From: a virus
Strand: one strand, 5' to 3'
DNA length: 42,444 nt
Virus record (IMG/VR): IMGVR_UViG_3300005536_000008
Coordinates: 1-42,444 of that record
Shown here: positions 121 to 26,254 of the stretch, one piece after another
Position numbering within the stretch: the first letter of the stretch is position 1
Layout of the letters: every line of letters begins with the position of its first letter
The notes under the pieces: generated by a model
Seen by the model: only the letters and a program-made list of their open reading frames with translations
Database searches by the model: none
What the model was told of the DNA's origin: nothing
Made by a program: the position numbers and the translations under genes

Positions 121-242
121 GTACACGATTTGCAAGCACTTAAAGAGAGATTGCAACTTAACTGGCATTATCTTGCAAAAAGCTGCACTGAGGTAGCCGG
201 GTCGATGAGCCCGGCAGGTGCTCACGAGGCGAAAAGTATAAG
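121..242. promoter_or_regulatory. Non-coding integrase-tRNA interval with phased TTGCAA sites
   Basis: There is no gene here. Three TTGCAA palindromes lie at 130-135, 151-156 and 173-178, centred 21 and 22 bp apart, about two helical turns each. They sit between the integrase start and the tRNA-Leu 3' end when the contig is closed. A GC-rich hairpin (6-bp arms 196-201 and 210-215, 8-nt loop) follows. Such phasing suggests a protein binding array, for example integrase arm sites or a repressor. The function is inferred. Confidence 0.4.
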
Positions 243-329
243 CGCCCCGGGAGGGATTCGAACCCTCGTAGGCTCACACCTAATCCGCTCTTAAGGCAGA
301 CGCATTAGACCGCGCTCTGCCACCGGGGC
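243..329 (-). tRNA. tRNA-Leu (anticodon UAA)
   Basis: A complete class II tRNA on the minus strand. The 7-bp acceptor stem is GCCCCGG (329-323) with CCGGGGC (250-244). A D arm is present. The anticodon stem TCTGC/GCGGA has one T-G pair and closes the loop CTTAAGA, giving anticodon UAA, which reads the Leu codon UUA. The long variable arm contains a TAGG/CCTA stem, as expected for Leu. The T arm is GAGGG-TTCGAAT-CCCTC. No intron and no encoded CCA were seen, and base 243 gives G as the apparent discriminator. It lies about 180 bp from the integrase start across the closed junction. It may be an expressed viral tRNA, or it may overlap the attachment site, since archaeal integrases often target tRNA genes. 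Confidence 0.93.
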
Positions 330-6265: not shown

Positions 6266-8061
6266 GAAACCTGGTCTCCCCCTTCCTCGTCAACTTCGCC
6301 AAGCAATTCGTTAAGTGAATGATAGAGATCAAAGGGGTCCTCGTGTGCAAATGGCCCGAAAGCGATGGTGGCCAGCCACCGGCCGTTGACTGCTTGGTGG
6401 ACGATGTGATCTACTCTTGCAATTGTGTTAAAAAGGCCATAGTGTGGAATATTGAGGACGACTCCGTCCCCAGGAACCAGAAGCATCCTGTTTGCATTGC
6501 CAGATGTTGATCCCGCGTATAGCAAGCTGCCATCGACCATAATGGTCCCGACCAGCGCGCTGTCTCTGACGCGATTCTGTTCAGCCGTCCGCAAGATGTC
6601 GATATCACTTTGACTTCCAAGCCTCCGGTCAATCCTTATCAGCACCCGCGGCTTGCTTTCTGTGCTCACGGACCTTGACCGGGGTGTCCTGTAAAAATGC
6701 AGGTAACTGATTATCGTCGGATCTGGAAAGAGCGCCAAGTCAGCTGCAAAGTTGCCCTTGACAATGAATTGGACTTCATCCACCAGAGTCGGCGACCCAA
6801 CTCTTGTCCACTCCGCTCCAGCCTCATCCCTGGTTGGCATATTCATTTTCAGCTTTTGGAGCGGACCCTTTGCAAGTGCGTCAATGTTGGCGAGGTTGTT
6901 TGATATCCAGTAGCCCCCGCTGCCGTTCTTGCCATGGTTGAGTCTTATCTGAAAGCGTTGCAGGCTGAAGTTGTTTATGATGCCAAGCTCCATGACATCC
7001 CAGTGGTTTTCGATCAGGCCGAGCATACTCTCGGCAAGCTTTGTACCATCATCATTTTGGAGAGTCCCGCCTCTCATAGTTAGCGCCACTTTGTTTTTGC
7101 TGCCAGGATCTGACGGCGCGTTCCAGCCGAAAGCCATCCCTGCAAGGCATCCAGATATCACGGGACCGTCATGAACAAAATTAGGCAATATGACATCTGT
7201 TGGTGTTTGATCGTCCTCGAGCAGCTGGCGTGCTTCCCAGAACTTTTTGTCTCCACAGAATACCGCGCCCGTTGGCGTGGTGGTGTTGGGCGCATACATC
7301 TTTTGCGCCGTATGAACATAGACTTCGTCAAAGTGGTAGCCGTCATCCGTCCACTTGAAGCGTGCTGTGCCTATGACATCGGCTTCAGTTATAATCAAAG
7401 TACTGTTTACCGGCGGATCGAGAATTGGCGTGAGCCGGAAATATTTCGGAATGTTAAGTCCGGCTACAAAGGAGTACTCAAGACCAAGTGCCGAACAAAT
7501 TTCATAGAGCGCCCTGCCAGAATAGGCTGCTTCAAAAATCATCCTTATCAGAGGGTCGCTTCCTGCGGACTGCCCAATCAGTAACTGCAGATCCTCGACT
7601 ACCGGAACGGTGATATCGGGATGGATGCTTGCGATTGCTTCCGTCAGCACTTTGCTCGCCTCCTGGGGCTTGTCTTTATAGTTCTTTTCGAAGACGCTTC
7701 CATAGCCCCAAAAGTCGCCAAAGTTCACGCCCGACAGCCTGAGCAGTCGACCTTTTTTCTGACTCACGATGGGCTCAACATCGAGGATCATGCCATCATA
7801 GATTGTTCCGGGGCCTTCCGTATCATCTGGCGTTTCGAGTAGGAACTTCACCTCATCGCCCCCTTGGAATATCCAGCCGTTGGGGCTTGTGCTGTCCAAG
7901 AGATCGTCGGTATTTGCATCCAAGACTACAGAGAACGGTGACTGATGATCTCCGCAGCCATAGTGAACTTCCAGGCCACCATAGTTGGACTTGTCGATGA
8001 TGTAGAATGTTTGATCGGTGAATACGTGCTTTAGCTTGAAAGTGACAAGGTCGACGGTCAT
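6262..8061 (-). CDS. Tail hub / baseplate protein
   Basis: 599 residues, the largest structural protein in the window. The N-terminal 100 residues read like the first barrel of a phage hub (TVDLVTFKLKHVFTDQTFY, then GGDEVKFLLETPDD). A middle alpha/beta part includes a segment near residue 150 (PVVEDLQLL) and the stretch GRALYEICSALGLEY. The final barrel holds MLLVPGDGVVLNIPHYG. This order matches the gp27/Tal-like tail hub located just after the tape measure. It overlaps the tape measure stop (ATGA). The assignment rests on position and domain outline. Confidence 0.7.
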   Translation of the reverse strand: MTVDLVTFKLKHVFTDQTFYIIDKSNYGGLEVHYGCGDHQSPFSVVLDANTDDLLDSTSPNGWIFQGGDEVKFLLETPDDTEGPGTIYDGMILDVEPIVSQKKGRLLRLSGVNFGDFWGYGSVFEKNYKDKPQEASKVLTEAIASIHPDITVPVVEDLQLLIGQSAGSDPLIRMIFEAAYSGRALYEICSALGLEYSFVAGLNIPKYFRLTPILDPPVNSTLIITEADVIGTARFKWTDDGYHFDEVYVHTAQKMYAPNTTTPTGAVFCGDKKFWEARQLLEDDQTPTDVILPNFVHDGPVISGCLAGMAFGWNAPSDPGSKNKVALTMRGGTLQNDDGTKLAESMLGLIENHWDVMELGIINNFSLQRFQIRLNHGKNGSGGYWISNNLANIDALAKGPLQKLKMNMPTRDEAGAEWTRVGSPTLVDEVQFIVKGNFAADLALFPDPTIISYLHFYRTPRSRSVSTESKPRVLIRIDRRLGSQSDIDILRTAEQNRVRDSALVGTIMVDGSLLYAGSTSGNANRMLLVPGDGVVLNIPHYGLFNTIARVDHIVHQAVNGRWLATIAFGPFAHEDPFDLYHSLNELLGEVDEEGGDQVS

Positions 8062-9071
8062 GTCGGCGGAGGTGTCACCCTTTGCCTAGTGCGCGTGCTT
8101 CTTGTCACTTGCTCAATTATTTCGCCCGACCTTGCGCCCTGTGGATAGACGATGACATTGCCTTGGACGATCATGTCACCGCCACCGCTAGATTCTGGTT
8201 GTAGACCAAACCAGGTTCGGGGATCCAGCCAGGGAGCATTTTCCTCAAGAAATCCTCTCCCGGCTTCGCGTGGTGCTCCGAGTCCAGCTTCTTGCAGCGA
8301 AAGACCTCCTATCGCACCGGCTACAAATGCTGCAGCTGGCGCAGCGATAGCAGACAACAAAGCCGAAAACCCGCCGCCTGCCGCTGCCGGTATTTCCCGC
8401 GAAACTCCTCCGAGTGGAGTTGCAGAACCCACCAATGGCGCTGCTCCGGGCCCTCTTCCAAATGCGCGACTGAGTACTCCAGAAATGCCTCCGCGTTCTC
8501 TTAGAAGAAAGCCTGCATATGCCGCCGTCTGTATTGCCTGGGCGATATCTCCGGTGACGCTGGATGCCGCCACGCCCATGGTGATGTACTGCACGGTGGC
8601 TTCATGAGCCAGGTTCGCCTGATCATTCAACAGCCGGTTGACATTCGCCTGCGCGCTTTGGGACGCTAACGTTTCCGTCCCTCCATCTCTGATGGCTACG
8701 GCCAGCTTTTCCTTTGCAATTCGCAAACGCTCGTCAAGTTCAGTCTGTCGCTGTTGTAAGAGGTTGTGGTTGACGTAGATCTGGTTGATTTTTAGGAATG
8801 CGTTACCGACCTGACCCACAAGTCTTGTGGAAGTAAGGAAGAGCTCGTGCTGCTCCCTGAATTCATTGCGAAATAGCCTCTGGACCCTGACGTTCTCCTG
8901 GATGGCGCTTCTCCTTGAGAGGAGCGACTCCCTTTCGGTCAGGGCGGATCGGCTGCTGTCCTGCAGGCCCTGCGACAGGCCTGCGAGAGCATCGCGGGTT
9001 TCTGAAAATGAGCTGCCGTCCTGGATCCTCGTGAGCCTTAATGTGACTGGAATATCCGGGCCTGATGACAT
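8058..9071 (-). CDS. Tape measure protein (short)
   Basis: 337 residues. A helical coiled-coil N-terminal half (20-160, with ERESLLSRRSAIQENVRVQR) is followed by an Ala/Gly-rich hydrophobic region (about 230-262) and a polar C-terminus. This is the usual tape measure layout, and it sits directly after the frameshifted tail chaperones. The chaperone stop and this ATG overlap as TAATG (9073-9069). At about 0.15 nm per residue, the known rule for tape measures, the tail would be only about 50 nm. It could instead be a tail-tip protein with the true tape measure elsewhere, but no longer candidate exists. Confidence 0.75.
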   Translation of the reverse strand: MSSGPDIPVTLRLTRIQDGSSFSETRDALAGLSQGLQDSSRSALTERESLLSRRSAIQENVRVQRLFRNEFREQHELFLTSTRLVGQVGNAFLKINQIYVNHNLLQQRQTELDERLRIAKEKLAVAIRDGGTETLASQSAQANVNRLLNDQANLAHEATVQYITMGVAASSVTGDIAQAIQTAAYAGFLLRERGGISGVLSRAFGRGPGAAPLVGSATPLGGVSREIPAAAGGGFSALLSAIAAPAAAFVAGAIGGLSLQEAGLGAPREAGRGFLEENAPWLDPRTWFGLQPESSGGGDMIVQGNVIVYPQGARSGEIIEQVTRSTRTRQRVTPPPT

Positions 9072-9558
9072 TATTCTTTCTTCTCCAAAGATTCTCTAAG
9101 AATTTTATCGGCCTCAATGCGTGCAAGCCACCCTGCGCGTGCGACAAGCAGGATCAGAGCTGGCTCGGCTAGCATTTCTTCCCATCTGAAGCCGTGCTGC
9201 TGGTAGAGCTGGAAGTAGAAGCCGATGCTGAAGAGGCGCTCGCCTTCCCCAAGCGTCCCGTTTTGGACTGCCCTAGATACGTCTCTAAAAAAGGGCTGGC
9301 TCCATTGATGTTGTCGACCTCCATCTTTAGATAAGTAAAGTCATCGATGTCTAGGCCAAAGTAGAACTTGCGAGCCTCGTCGATATTGTCGCCACCGCTG
9401 CCGTAGAAGTACATGTAAAAATACAGTTCCTTGTCATAATACAATGGCTGCTGCCTCGCGATGGAGAATGCGTCTTCAAGCTGGCCGCCGTTGAGCCGTT
9501 TTATTTTTACTTCCTTTTCGCAGATCGGTAGTTTGATAGTCTTTTCATTTTCTAGCAT
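9071..9558 (-). CDS. Tail assembly chaperone fusion GT (programmed -1 frameshift)
   Basis: Ribosomes that slip -1 at TTTTTTA (9292-9286) leave the G frame after Leu91 and continue in an open frame of 71 codons to the TAA at 9073-9071. The fusion is 162 residues. The extension (GERLFSIGFYFQLYQQHGFR, then a helical ARAGWLARIEADKIL) looks like a real folded domain, whereas the unshifted tail is Ser/Ala filler. In phage lambda and relatives, G and GT load the tape measure and recruit tail tube subunits. The TAA overlaps the tape measure ATG, which strongly supports use of the shifted frame. Confidence 0.9.
9169..9558 (-). CDS. Tail assembly chaperone G (unshifted product)
   Basis: 129 residues. 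Residues 1-90 form the chaperone core (LPICEKEVKIKRLNGGQLED, ARKFYFGLDIDDF). After the slippery site the zero frame gives a low-complexity Ser/Ala/Thr tail (SASSASASTSSSTSS) and ends in DGKKC. It lies between the tail tube and tape measure genes, the canonical place. The short and the shifted products are normally needed in a fixed ratio. Confidence 0.88.
   Translation of the reverse strand: MLENEKTIKLPICEKEVKIKRLNGGQLEDAFSIARQQPLYYDKELYFYMYFYGSGGDNIDEARKFYFGLDIDDFTYLKMEVDNINGASPFLETYLGQSKTGRLGKASASSASASTSSSTSSTASDGKKC
9286..9292 (-). promoter_or_regulatory. -1 ribosomal frameshift heptamer T TTT TTA
   Basis: The zero-frame codons are CCT TTT TTA GAG. Both P-site TTT and A-site TTA can re-pair after a -1 slip (TTT TTT), the same heptamer used by HIV-1. 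The -1 frame stays open from here to 9071. A second, weaker slip site (GGGG in TTG GGG AAG) lies about 50 nt downstream. The A-site codon UUA is decoded by the tRNA-Leu(UAA) encoded at 243-329. Confidence 0.88.
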
Positions 9559-9575
9559 TGTCGATCACAATCAAT

Positions 9576-10457
9576 CTAACTCGTCCCGTATGTCAGGGTC
9601 TTGCCGGAGCCCCGAAGTTCCTTCGTCAGGGCACTCTTGTTGATGCCAGCCAGATCATGCTTACCACCCTTCTTGTACATGCAGTTGTTGAAGGTCACAG
9701 ACCACATCAAGCCGCCACTTAAGTTCGTCAGCAGGAACTTGAGCGAAGTAAATGGTGTGCCTGCTATCTTGGCGCTGTATTCGTCAAATGTATCGCCCGT
9801 GAGGACATCCCTTGTATAGCTCCATTCATTGGTGCGGTTCGTCCTAGGCAGAGCCCTCCGCTTTCCTGTGCTTGGATTTCTGCGCTCCTTGTCAAGGTTG
9901 TTCTCGATAGTGAAGGAGGATTTCTCCCAGTCGGAAATAGTCGAGCCATTCTTTGAAAGTGTCAGGTTCTTTGAAGTCAGGTTATCGGTGTAAAGGTTCC
10001 CTGGCGTAGTGAATCCGCCGCTTCCGAGAGTTGGCGCGTTCACGTTGGTGTCGAGCGATTCGACATCCCACTCGATCTTCGGCGTGCCAGGGTTGTCGGC
10101 ATTGAATCGCATCCTGTCTACCTTGGAGCCGAGCAACTGGACATATTTCGTCGGCGAACCGGTGGCCGCGTCGGCCAGCACCAGTGAAAAATATTGATCG
10201 GCAGAAATGAGTGCAACTAACGGCGCCACTAGAGGAACAAGGAACCCGAGCTTTGCGCTTGGGCTTAAAGCGACCTGCGGAAGATTATAATAATCAAGTA
10301 CGCCGGACGCGGTGATCTCTTCGATCTCTGGTCCAGGATCAGGGTCCATCAGTGTGACCGGCCCCAAGTCTTTCAATGCCGGGTTTGGTTTCATAGTGCC
10401 AGGCGTTGTTTCCGTCTCATAGTAAGCGCGAAAGACGTTTCCAAAATTGCTGCTCAA
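9576..10457 (-). CDS. Major tail tube protein
   Basis: 293 residues, beta-rich, with alternating hydrophobic strands (YFSLVLADAATGSPTKYVQL, GLMWSVTFNNCMYKKGGKHD). Size, acidic Gly/Thr-rich make-up and position just upstream of the chaperones match siphovirus tube proteins. The start is TTG 10457, unusual for a highly expressed gene; no ATG occurs before residue 22. A TAGTTCCT boundary motif lies 43 bp upstream, consistent with its own promoter. Confidence 0.8.
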   Translation of the reverse strand: MSSNFGNVFRAYYETETTPGTMKPNPALKDLGPVTLMDPDPGPEIEEITASGVLDYYNLPQVALSPSAKLGFLVPLVAPLVALISADQYFSLVLADAATGSPTKYVQLLGSKVDRMRFNADNPGTPKIEWDVESLDTNVNAPTLGSGGFTTPGNLYTDNLTSKNLTLSKNGSTISDWEKSSFTIENNLDKERRNPSTGKRRALPRTNRTNEWSYTRDVLTGDTFDEYSAKIAGTPFTSLKFLLTNLSGGLMWSVTFNNCMYKKGGKHDLAGINKSALTKELRGSGKTLTYGTS

Positions 10458-10501: not shown

Positions 10502-10891
10502 TCAAACTATGCGTATGACAAGCTCGCCAACAGCCATTTCAATGAATTCGCTGGAGTTGATCGTGCCGATAATGTGATCCCGAGTCCGGAGCATGAAGAA
10601 TTGTCCTGGTACGAAGGATCCTGACCGCGTAAGATGGCCGACTTCGACAAAGTAGGAATACGGTGCTCTGCTTGTTATTGTGTGAGTGAACTCGTCAGGC
10701 TTTTCTGGGATGAGCTGTGATCGCAGGTAGCCGGTGTCAACAGGCGCGATGTTCTGAAGGTACACGAAGCCATCAGCCACTACCACATCCAAGGGAGCAT
10801 CGGTGATTGACAGCATGAAGCCTTCGCTCTCCAGCAGATCCAGTGTAGCCAAGGCCTCGTCAAGTCCGTCAATTTCTACTTTGATGCTCAA
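10502..10891 (-). CDS. HK97 gp10-like neck / head-tail joining protein
   Basis: 129 residues. The family motif is clear: APVDTGYLRSQL (about 49-60) followed by APYSYFVEVGHLTR (about 76-89). The gp10-like family acts in tail completion or neck assembly. The start is TTG 10891, overlapping the previous stop as TTGA. The stop is followed by boundary motif copy 2, so this is the last gene of its unit. Confidence 0.85.
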   Translation of the reverse strand: MSIKVEIDGLDEALATLDLLESEGFMLSITDAPLDVVVADGFVYLQNIAPVDTGYLRSQLIPEKPDEFTHTITSRAPYSYFVEVGHLTRSGSFVPGQFFMLRTRDHIIGTINSSEFIEMAVGELVIRIV

Positions 10892-12342: not shown

Positions 12343-12350
12343 AGGAACTA
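12343..12350 (-). promoter_or_regulatory. TAGTTCCT boundary motif, copy 3
   Basis: TAGTTCCTAAGTTTTG; its TAG is the stop codon of the WNQ-repeat gene, and the next ATG is 39 bp downstream. Confidence 0.5.
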
Positions 12351-13214
12351 TGCGCCGCCGTCCTGCTCGAGCTTTGTCTTGTCAGGCATTGCAGCGGGCT
12401 CGACGTTCTTTGCCTGTGTGGCTTCGAGCCCTCGCGGTGGTTTGTGCGCTCTTGGAGTGATCACAGTTCTGCGCTTGCTCTTTATCTGTCTCCACTTGTC
12501 CGTGAATATTGTGCGCACCGGGCCGATCTGGTTCCAGATGTCAGTGAACGTCGCCCTGATAACGCCGAACTGCACCCAGGAATCTGTAAAGGTTGCGCTA
12601 AATGTGACGAGTTGATTCCATGAATCGACAAAGGTTGAACGGATTGTTGTGACTTGATTCCATCTGTCGGTAAAGGAAGCCGATGATACGTTGGCAAGCT
12701 GGTTCCATTTGTCTGTGTAGGTGGCCAGAATTGTGGCGATCTGGTTCCAAGTATCAGGGATTGCTGCCCGGATTCGCACCAGCTGATTCCACTTGTCCGT
12801 GAAAGGCGCGTTGACAATTACCAGCTGGTTCCACTTATCCGTGATTGATTTCTGGACAAACCCTGCCTGTAGCCATTTGTCCGTAAAGATCGCCCTGATG
12901 GGACCGATCTGGTTCCAGATGTCGATGAACTCTACAATGCGAGTCTCCAGCTGGTTCCAGATGTCCGCGATTTGCTTCTGCACGCGTAGAAGCTGATTCC
13001 ACTTATCGATAAACGATGCCGTGATCGTCGTGAGTTTGGGCACGGTCTTCCAGGCATCATATCTTCTGATCATGATGGGATATTTTCTGACCGTTGGCTT
13101 TGGCGGCAGCAAGGCAGATCTCACTGAGACGGAGCCGACAGTGTTGTTCAGAAATGGATAGCCAGAACAGCGCGAACCATTGACCGCTGCGACTTTCTGG
13201 GCTGTTGTTACCAT
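12348..13214 (-). CDS. WNQ-repeat structural protein (13 tandem 14-residue repeats)
   Basis: 288 residues. Residues about 63-245 hold thirteen repeats of consensus I-R-A-x-F-T-D-K-W-N-Q-L-V/G-x. Trp occurs at 72, 86, 100, 114, 128, 142, 156, 170, 185, 199, 213, 227 and 241, exactly 14 apart except one step of 15. Flanks are basic: an N-terminal YPIMIRRYDAW segment and a Lys/Arg/Pro-rich C-terminus. Repeats are well diverged in DNA, so this is an old, selected array rather than recent slippage. A 14-residue period fits a solenoid or paired-heptad rod. The place among head and neck genes suggests a virion fibre or decoration. I do not recognise the family. Confidence 0.8.
   Translation of the reverse strand: MVTTAQKVAAVNGSRCSGYPFLNNTVGSVSVRSALLPPKPTVRKYPIMIRRYDAWKTVPKLTTITASFIDKWNQLLRVQKQIADIWNQLETRIVEFIDIWNQIGPIRAIFTDKWLQAGFVQKSITDKWNQLVIVNAPFTDKWNQLVRIRAAIPDTWNQIATILATYTDKWNQLANVSSASFTDRWNQVTTIRSTFVDSWNQLVTFSATFTDSWVQFGVIRATFTDIWNQIGPVRTIFTDKWRQIKSKRRTVITPRAHKPPRGLEATQAKNVEPAAMPDKTKLEQDGGA
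12480..13028 (-). repeat. 42-bp-period coding repeat (WNQ array)
   Basis: Thirteen 42-bp units encode the 14-residue repeat of the WNQ protein; one unit carries an extra codon. On the plus strand the recurring core is CTGRTTCCA followed by TTGTCNGT-like bases. Units differ at many silent positions. Confidence 0.85.
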
Positions 13215-15448: not shown

Positions 15449-15955
15449 TCACTCGTTGGTGTCCACGTCGATGAACAGCTCGTATTGGTCCAGATCCTTC
15501 GCAGAGGCACCCGGATCGGTTGTCAGCTTTAGCCAGATGGCCTTGTGCTGCCCTGCTGGGATGTTTGCAAGCGAGAGCTTGGTGCCAGAATTGTAAGCGT
15601 TGAAAGTCACGCCGGAAGGCGCAGTCGTTTCGTTGGCTATTGTCTGCTCTGTCCCGTTGACTGCAGAGGTTCCTGCGCCCGCCTCAACGCTAACACCAGC
15701 ATTTGCGGGCTGACTGTTAAAATACAGCTTGCCGTTCTTGGCAGTCAGCGAGCCGTGAGCATTATGGATGTAAAAGCACCGATATCTGGTGATCCCGTCA
15801 TTGCTCTCCTGGCCGGTAAAGTCCGGCCAGACGGCGTTCAATGTGTTATTGGGAATTGCCGTGGAACTTTTTGCGCCCCCGAGCGAAGCAAGGGGATCCG
15901 TGTTGCCTGCGCCGCCGGAATAACGCCGTGTAATGTCACTACTGACTATTGGCAC
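15449..15955 (-). CDS. Virion structural protein
   Basis: 168 residues from GTG 15955. The motifs GITRYRCFYIHNAHGSLTA and AGQHKAIWLKLTTDPGASAK resemble a family of phage structural proteins that begin by recording a cryptic head-associated beta domain. It is rich in Asn/Thr/Gly. Boundary motif copy 4 lies 28 bp upstream. It is placed next to the head gene cluster; the function is inferred from context. Confidence 0.62.
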   Translation of the reverse strand: MPIVSSDITRRYSGGAGNTDPLASLGGAKSSTAIPNNTLNAVWPDFTGQESNDGITRYRCFYIHNAHGSLTAKNGKLYFNSQPANAGVSVEAGAGTSAVNGTEQTIANETTAPSGVTFNAYNSGTKLSLANIPAGQHKAIWLKLTTDPGASAKDLDQYELFIDVDTNE

Positions 15956-24782: not shown

Positions 24783-24790
24783 AAGGACTA
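24783..24790 (-). promoter_or_regulatory. TAGTCCTT boundary motif, copy 9
   Basis: TAGTCCTTAATTCAGT; its TAG is the TerL stop codon. The next ATG is 36 bp away. One T is missing relative to the consensus TAGTTCCTTA. Confidence 0.42.
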
Positions 24791-26254
24791 TCCCTTTCGG
24801 TTGATTGGCCTTATCTTGTAGTCCATGTTATTGGCAAAGTAATCGAGGCCCATGATAAATGGATCGTAAAGGTCGAAGGTGCCGAGTTTCTTGTCGATCG
24901 TTCCCTTTTCGTTCTTCTTTGCTGCGCGCAGTTGCCGGAGCAATTCTTCAAATTGAAGCTCTATCTTTACCTGCAGCTGCTTGACCTGTATGCTGGCGTT
25001 GTCAGTCATTATCTGGCCCCTTTCCCGGAAGTTGATAGGCTGTGTTGTTATCTTGGGCTTAAACTCCTCTATCAGGCCAGGATTGGCGGCATCGATTCGG
25101 AGCACCATGTAGCCATAGTACGTGATAGAGTTGTTGATTATCGAGATCAACTCTGTCTGTGACGGCCGGGAATATTCCGCTGCTTGGATCACGTGCGGGA
25201 TCCCGTCGCGCTGCTCAAAGCCAACGAGCCCCGACTTGCTTGAGCCATAGCCAGGGTCGACATCAAGCACCCGCTCATATTGCTTCTCGTGCTTGATTGG
25301 ATAGGAAACGGTGCAGAGCTCGAGGGCCTTGACGTCGAATATGTCGCCGGAGCCGTGTCCCCACTGGTGCATGTAATTGCGCTGGAAACTTGGATCGTCT
25401 TTGATCAGATCGATGTCATCTTTCCTATAGAGCGAAGTGAAGGATTCCGGATGAACCTCAAGGCCGACGTGATAGTCGAGAATGTATTTCTTGTAGATAC
25501 TCGGCTCTTCCCTTTCGATGTCGTACATAAAGCCCGCCGGGACATCACCGGCTGTCGAAACAAACACAATGATTACATCGGCCCCGCCGATATAATGCTC
25601 TGCAGCATCTTTGACCTTCTGCTGCTGCTCCGCCATGATCCTGAAAAAGGCACCTTCGTCAATGAGTATCAGCTTCATGTTGGGCTTGTTCCTTACCGCG
25701 TCGATGCCCTTGTTGTCGGCAGGATAGGCCTTGAAGAGGACCGTGTTCAGCGTGAATTCCTTGCGGGTGTTGTAACGCTCGTTGATCGGGACTTTGTAGT
25801 TGCCAGTGCCCCTGTCTTCTATGTCCTTGATTTCCAGTATGCCTTTAGCCCGGGAGATCATGCCCTCCGACTCGCCAAGACCGGTGCCGACTACGATGGC
25901 AACTTCTCCGTTGCGCCAGGCAATGTTGTTTAGAGCCTGATCTTCAGCGTAGGAAAGCCAGAACTCAGTTGCGCCTATTTTCGGTGGCTTCAGGATGTAG
26001 AAATAGCGAACACCGTTCTGCAGGTCTCGTAGGATGTCTTCCTGCCAAGAATAGAGCGGATGACGCTGGCCCCAGCGCTTCGGTAGGCCTCGCCAATGCC
26101 AGAAGCAACAAGCGCTGCCGTCGGGAATAACCTGCCCATCACGAAGGTAATGTCCACACCAAAAACCATACTGAAGGCTCGGCGGCTGCCAGCCTTTTTC
26201 GCCCAGCGAAAAATGTTGCTCCAGCCGCTTGAGCCGGGCATCCGATGAGCTCAA
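24788..26254 (-). CDS. terL: Terminase large subunit
   Basis: 488 residues. ATPase: a Walker A-like loop LKPPKIGATEF (89-98), which deviates from the usual GKS/GKT, then Walker B LILIDE (195-200) and a coupling motif around FVSTAGD (231-237). Nuclease: first acidic motif LDVDPGYGSSKSG (330-342, Asp331/333), a second Asp in VLRIDAANPG (Asp388), and a third in FDLYDPFIMGLDYF (about 463-475). It cuts and pumps DNA into the prohead. The start is TTG 26254 directly after the previous TAG. It is preceded by a small-terminase candidate. Confidence 0.92.
   Translation of the reverse strand: MSSSDARLKRLEQHFSLGEKGWQPPSLQYGFWCGHYLRDGQVIPDGSACCFWHWRGLPKRWGQRHPLYSWQEDILRDLQNGVRYFYILKPPKIGATEFWLSYAEDQALNNIAWRNGEVAIVVGTGLGESEGMISRAKGILEIKDIEDRGTGNYKVPINERYNTRKEFTLNTVLFKAYPADNKGIDAVRNKPNMKLILIDEGAFFRIMAEQQQKVKDAAEHYIGGADVIIVFVSTAGDVPAGFMYDIEREEPSIYKKYILDYHVGLEVHPESFTSLYRKDDIDLIKDDPSFQRNYMHQWGHGSGDIFDVKALELCTVSYPIKHEKQYERVLDVDPGYGSSKSGLVGFEQRDGIPHVIQAAEYSRPSQTELISIINNSITYYGYMVLRIDAANPGLIEEFKPKITTQPINFRERGQIMTDNASIQVKQLQVKIELQFEELLRQLRAAKKNEKGTIDKKLGTFDLYDPFIMGLDYFANNMDYKIRPINRKG

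Follow-up and report, generated by a model that had tools for sequence, protein, structure and literature searches.

In this study, we identified a gene of a head-tailed virus that, judging from its sequence and from its relatives, very probably encodes a G/GT pair of tail-assembly chaperones made through −1 ribosomal frameshifting. The gene lies in IMG/VR virus record IMGVR_UViG_3300005536_000008, the whole of which (42,444 nucleotides [nt]; hereafter the window) was analysed. The window has the slippery site and, behind it, an open −1 frame with the codon bias of a coding frame; the layout is conserved in 15 relatives. From these features we infer the slip on an archaeal ribosome and its frequency, as well as the chaperone role of the products.

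Direct reading of the sequence places a minus-strand open reading frame (ORF) of 129 codons, 9558-9169(-), immediately 3′ of the major tail protein gene. The zero-frame codons around the site are AAT GGA GCC AGC CCT TTT TTA GAG ACG, with CCT TTT TTA at 9294-9286; a sequence-only reading made earlier had recognized these three codons but set them one base off, at 9295-9287. It had rightly named TTTTTTA as a canonical heptamer, and T_TTT_TTA at 9292-9286(-) stands in the codon phase required for tandem −1 slippage, but it had overlooked a second canonical heptamer, C_CCT_TTT at 9295-9289(-), which overlaps the first. The slippery run CCCTTTTTTA (9286-9295, minus strand) thus holds two X_XXY_YYZ heptamers in zero-frame phase, and the predicted junction residues are ...SPFL|RDV via T_TTT_TTA and ...SPF|FRDV via C_CCT_TTT. 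After the slip, the −1 frame reads AGA GAC GTA and onwards, staying open for 71 codons until a TAA at 9073-9071. As had been claimed, this stop overlaps the ATG of the next gene (9071-8058(-)), the two having base 9071 in common (TAATG). Apart from the one-base offset, the earlier description of the sequence is correct.

On the basis of the reading frames and codon log-odds, the gene divides into three parts, all on the minus strand. The G domain (9286-9558), which adjoins the tail tube gene, comprises the 91 zero-frame codons up to and including the slippery TTA. The T domain (9071-9285) consists of the 71 codons of the −1 frame plus the TAA and is reached only after the slip, while the remaining 38 of the 129 zero-frame codons, plus a TGA, form a Ser/Ala-rich tail (9169-9285) that ends the unshifted short product. 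A scan of the −1 frame for ATG, GTG or TTG found a single start opening an ORF of at least 20 amino acids (aa), an ATG giving 34 aa; the whole 71-codon frame could therefore not be made by ordinary initiation.

Among the genes of the window, the chaperone gene is the only one in which an in-frame X_XXY_YYZ heptamer lies within 45 codons of the stop and a −1 ORF of 45 codons or more extends beyond that stop. Codon log-odds trained on the 38 other genes of the window gave +36.6 for frame 0 in the G part upstream of the site, against −36.0 and −49.6 for the other two frames, whereas over the 71-codon stretch frame −1 scored +16.8 and frame 0 −19.9. For reference, true-frame windows in this genome have a mean of +19.3 (standard deviation 7.6), and the best of 242 equally long wrong-frame windows reached +1.5. 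At the site, the codon-usage signal leaves frame 0 for frame −1. Because frame −1 carries the signal even within the 38-codon overlap (+10.8, versus −5.0 for frame 0), the Ser/Ala-rich zero-frame tail is probably a by-product; its negative log-odds support the earlier description of it as filler.

Relatives were collected in two ways. Through the terminase we obtained ten further lineages with a tail region: Nitrososphaera phage Pro-Nvie1 (L002), the bin14 provirus (L003/L041), proviruses in genomes G031 (L042) and G003 (L045), and six lineages from IMG/VR, where the archaeal host is putative (L118, L119, L122, L125, L128 and L067/L068). All ten carry a canonical heptamer in the gene that follows the tube protein gene, together with a −1 ORF that extends beyond the stop of that gene; the heptamer is TTTTTTA in L041, L122, L118 and L045, CCCTTTG in L002 and L042, CCCTTTC in L068, CCCAAAC in L119, AAAAAAA in L128 and AAATTTA in L125. 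In a prospective test, the tube-protein profile alone was run against 400 genomes from the same class, a set chosen around the bin14 genome. This yielded five new lineages with a downstream gene, and all five have the site (p = 3e-10): TTTTTTA in L147 and L151, CCCTTTG in L150, AAAAAAC in L148 and TTTAAAA in L149. Two more tube-profile matches, at contig ends, were left out of the count. Six relatives thus have T_TTT_TTA at the position seen in the window; three have CCCTTTG there and one has CCCTTTC.

The sequence-only reading had named two things that would speak against it: the lack of a match to the −1 frame in related viruses, or relatives with a closed −1 frame and no slippery site. Instead, all 15 relatives that include the gene next to the major tail protein have in it a canonical heptamer followed by a −1 ORF of 55-143 codons. 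With the window included, 16 out of 16 lineages have this arrangement, compared with 2 of the 373 other coding-strand genes of these stretches (Fisher p = 1.6e-26), although not every lineage counts as fully independent (L045 and L147 share one genome, and their G parts are 58% identical). The order tube, G, T(−1), in some cases the neck gene, and tape measure is seen in the window and in relatives. With the T parts alone as queries, BLAST matched pairs within the group L002, L041, L042 and L068 (E values of the pairs that matched, 5e-13 to 2e-8) and also matched L045 with L128 (E = 5e-5). In all pairs tested, the −1 frame shows fewer differences per nonsynonymous site (pN) than per synonymous site (pS), for example 0.378 versus 0.748 for L045/L147, and the same holds for the G frame; synonymous sites are near saturation, and ratios are therefore not given. 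Both results support the claim that the shifted frame encodes a domain. In addition, a stop codon interrupts the −1 frame shortly before the site in eight relatives, 2-6 codons away in L041, L119, L122, L128, L118, L045 and L149 and 10 codons away in L125. In these relatives, the frame can thus be entered only at the site or just upstream of it.

We propose that, in a head-tailed virus infecting Nitrososphaera-type archaea, this gene would supply both tail-assembly chaperones. The majority of ribosomes would stay in frame and make a short G-like protein of 129 aa (91 of G plus an unconstrained tail of 38). The others would slip back by one base while both tRNAs are on CCC TTT TTT A, which would yield a GT-like fusion of 162 aa. 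By analogy with phage lambda, G may coat the tape measure protein and the T part may recruit tail tube subunits, with the slip frequency setting the ratio of G to GT.

Several observations limit this proposal or weigh against it. An open 71-codon −1 frame alone has a chance of about 3% in this genome and is by itself weak evidence, hence the other tests. In the 70 nt downstream of the site we found no consistent 3′ stimulatory structure (z = −0.94 in the window, with 1 of 16 lineages below −2); such a structure is common for −1 frameshifting but not required, and lambda does without one. Neither G nor T of the window has a Pfam match, the best PHROG match is an unnamed family (E = 0.01), and comparison with the relatives' profiles by hhalign gave a probability of at most 5%, that is, no similarity. 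The profile searches that the sequence-only reading had called for accordingly failed to place the protein in any named chaperone family. As single-protein queries in IMG/VR, the GT, tail tube, portal and terminase of the window found no relative. Nothing meaningful matched GT among phage records, GT and tube used singly against 70 host-family genomes gave nothing significant, and a three-member GT alignment retrieved no relative from IMG/VR. The presumed tape measure protein (337 aa, 8058-9071(-)) has no family match either, and its assignment is positional: the chaperone gene lies between the major tail protein gene and this gene. Since no sequence homologue was found for G or T, the evidence from the window itself consists of the site, the frame, the codon signal and synteny.

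Family and structure comparisons of the relatives gave faint signals. Of 12 relatives, two matched the tail assembly chaperone family phrog_1442 (E = 0.004) and one matched Phage_TAC_7 (E = 0.03), both weakly. The G protein of L147 is predicted to fold as a beta-hairpin followed by helices (pLDDT 83.5); many of its near-matches in BFVD are named tail assembly chaperone, the best at E = 0.03 and none significant, and its model has no match in PDB. The AlphaFold model of the window's G has the same order of elements at low confidence (pLDDT 54), and it gave no PDB match and no useful fold match.

Could the fusion arise without ribosomal frameshifting? RNA polymerase might stutter on the T run and produce mixed mRNAs, since homopolymers can induce polymerase slippage and the window has a run of six T. 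Runs of six are, however, short for efficient slippage, and the relatives with CCCTTTG, CCCTTTC, CCCAAAC, AAATTTA or TTTAAAA, in which no homopolymer exceeds 3-4 bases, nevertheless keep the exact X_XXY_YYZ phase. Because only tandem slippage by the ribosome needs this phase, ribosomal slippage fits better, and we regard transcriptional slippage as improbable. It could also be argued that there are two separate genes, with the T frame translated alone by reinitiation, or that the −1 frame is an accident of composition. The 3% chance of openness, the GTG or ATG close to where the T frame begins in some relatives (L150 and L138) and the annotation of Pro-Nvie1 gp19 as a gene of its own would suit such a view, but no start codon in the window's −1 frame gives more than 34 aa, codon usage marks that frame as coding, and the slippery site occurs in 16/16 lineages against 2/373 background genes; taken together, these data make the two-gene explanation very improbable.

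Finally, the real gene might be one continuous frame broken by a sequencing or assembly error, given that the record is a single-contig metagenome and homopolymers are error-prone. Such an indel is scarcely credible, as fifteen other loci keep two frames and break exactly at a slippery heptamer, among them the annotated Pro-Nvie1 record and a 2.5 Mb contig of G043 carrying the same provirus. A G/GT gene expressed by −1 ribosomal frameshifting remains by far the most probable explanation.

One of the closest known systems is that of phage lambda, with its tail assembly chaperones gpG and gpGT (Xu, Hendrix and Duda 2004, as cited in PMC7911831). The gene described here resembles it in the order tube, G, T(−1), tape measure, in its overlapping frames, in the in-frame X_XXY_YYZ heptamer near the end of G, in the small T domain and in having no obvious need for a 3′ structure. 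It differs in that the host is probably an archaeon, no sequence similarity was detected, and the run is CCCTTTTTTA rather than GGGAAAG. The lambda slippery site is G_GGA_AAG; U_UUU_UUA is a heptamer of the human immunodeficiency virus type.

The idea that few cases have been examined in archaeal viruses needs to be qualified, as precedents are already published, in the form of predictions. A −1 frameshift in the same chaperone gene is predicted for the haloarchaeal tailed viruses HVTV-1, HCTV-1/-2/-5 and Hardycor1 in PMC8211752, PMC5009743 and PMC7911831. The hosts of those viruses are Halobacteria, not Nitrososphaeria, and in the present set TTT forms the second half of the heptamer in 12 of 16 lineages. 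Only one reported archaeal −1 frameshift has experimental support, in the Saccharolobus fucosidase gene (review PMC8211752). A survey of thaumarchaeal elements (PMC6563490) does not mention frameshifts, and a full-text literature search combining Thaumarchaeota, ribosomal frameshift and tape measure revealed no earlier report. What is new here is therefore how widely the arrangement is conserved in a group on which we found no earlier report, the G/GT frameshift itself being already known. It is conceivable, if rather doubtful, that tail-chaperone slip sites in viruses of Nitrososphaeria favour U-rich A-site codons (U_UUU_UUA, C_CCU_UUN) without a stimulatory structure and that the slippage preference of the Nitrososphaeria translation system differs from that of haloarchaea and most bacteria.

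Pro-Nvie1 (FR725450) has a related terminase (32% identity) and is laid out in the same way: CCCTTTG lies at 12593, and the −1 frame runs to 12826. In its annotation, however, gp18 and gp19 are two hypothetical proteins without a frameshift, and its neck gene stands between T and the tape measure gene. Most likely, gp18 and gp19 (L002:12237-12826) are one frameshifted chaperone gene. The bin14 provirus (Nitrososphaera sp., JAJUFP010000002.1; L003/L041) shares 67% terminase identity and the same T_TTT_TTA, which stands directly before the stop TAA and opens a −1 frame of 79 codons, but its G and T cannot be aligned with those of the window, and its tail proteins have diverged. One of the two background positives also lies in Pro-Nvie1: gp22, a zinc-finger protein (L002:15073-15669, FR725450), has C_CCA_AAG at 15600, from where the −1 frame stays open for 571 codons and reaches into the gene annotated as baseplate; this may be chance or a real fusion.

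The major tail (tube) protein (9576-10457(-)) was identified by Pfam PF18906 Phage_tube_2 (E = 1.2e-10, above the gathering score) and by the relatives' profile, a neck/tail-completion protein (10502-10891(-)) matches phrog_5 (E = 1.2e-11), and the large terminase is encoded at 24788-26254(-). In the structural gene block, a 288-aa protein (12348-13214(-)) consists mostly of about ten FTDKWNQL-type repeats. The terminase is 67% identical to one on a 247 kb contig of a Nitrososphaera sp. metagenome-assembled genome (provirus L003) and 32% identical to the annotated terminase of Pro-Nvie1. On this basis, the host is probably a Nitrososphaera-like, ammonia-oxidizing archaeon of soil, in agreement with the archaeal origin first proposed. 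The record is probably a complete genome, circular or circularly assembled, since it has an exact 120-base direct terminal repeat (1-120 and 42325-42444).

Circular assembly would bring an integrase-like gene (41129-42385) next to a complete tRNA-Leu with anticodon TAA (242-329(-)). This tRNA decodes UUA, the last codon of the slip site; no other Leu codon is used as rarely by the virus (35 of 802). Only the 3′ part of the tRNA gene, and in no case its full length, was matched in 70 related archaeal genomes, and it may serve as an attachment site or supply the rare tRNA. A link between this tRNA-Leu(UAA) and slip efficiency was considered and dropped, as the tRNA is absent from all stretches of relatives scanned, six of which have the identical heptamer. 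Elsewhere in the window, a protein encoded at 36929-37783(-) has a run of VRDSVWDSVRGSV repeats in mid-sequence, and one encoded at 40197-41063(+) looks secreted, with a signal-like N-terminus and a C-terminal PEF...hydrophobic...R/K end that recalls archaeal sorting signals; a family search with the latter gave no significant match.

On the head side, a second set of genes came to light. In 19 terminase-related IMG/VR contigs (L089:15215-16107, L073, L074, L076, L077, L078, L082, L083, L085, L090, L091, L094, L098, L101, L102, L107, L108, L109 and L111), a gene ends in an A9 run (17 contigs) or an A10 run (two contigs) just before its stop, and the −1 frame goes on for 86-400 codons. In L089, this gene lies between portal-like and capsid-like genes. 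A KTSC domain (PF13619, E from 7e-11 to 2e-13) was found in four of the six −1 frames scanned and is recognizable in most of the others, with L090, L098 and L108 having a different ending. From its sequence, this looks like a second conserved recoding event, for which polymerase slippage on A9 is as plausible as ribosomal slippage on A_AAA_AAC.

In summary, cases of frameshifting in archaeal viruses have so far been predictions from haloviruses. The sites described here, naturally occurring predicted sites in viruses and proviruses of (putative) ammonia-oxidizing archaea, offer test sequences for whether, and how well, an archaeal ribosome slips at canonical heptamers, and one of them belongs to a cultured host, Nitrososphaera viennensis (Pro-Nvie1). 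Gene callers divide this gene in two, and in archaeal viruses of this kind T proteins are easily overlooked during annotation.
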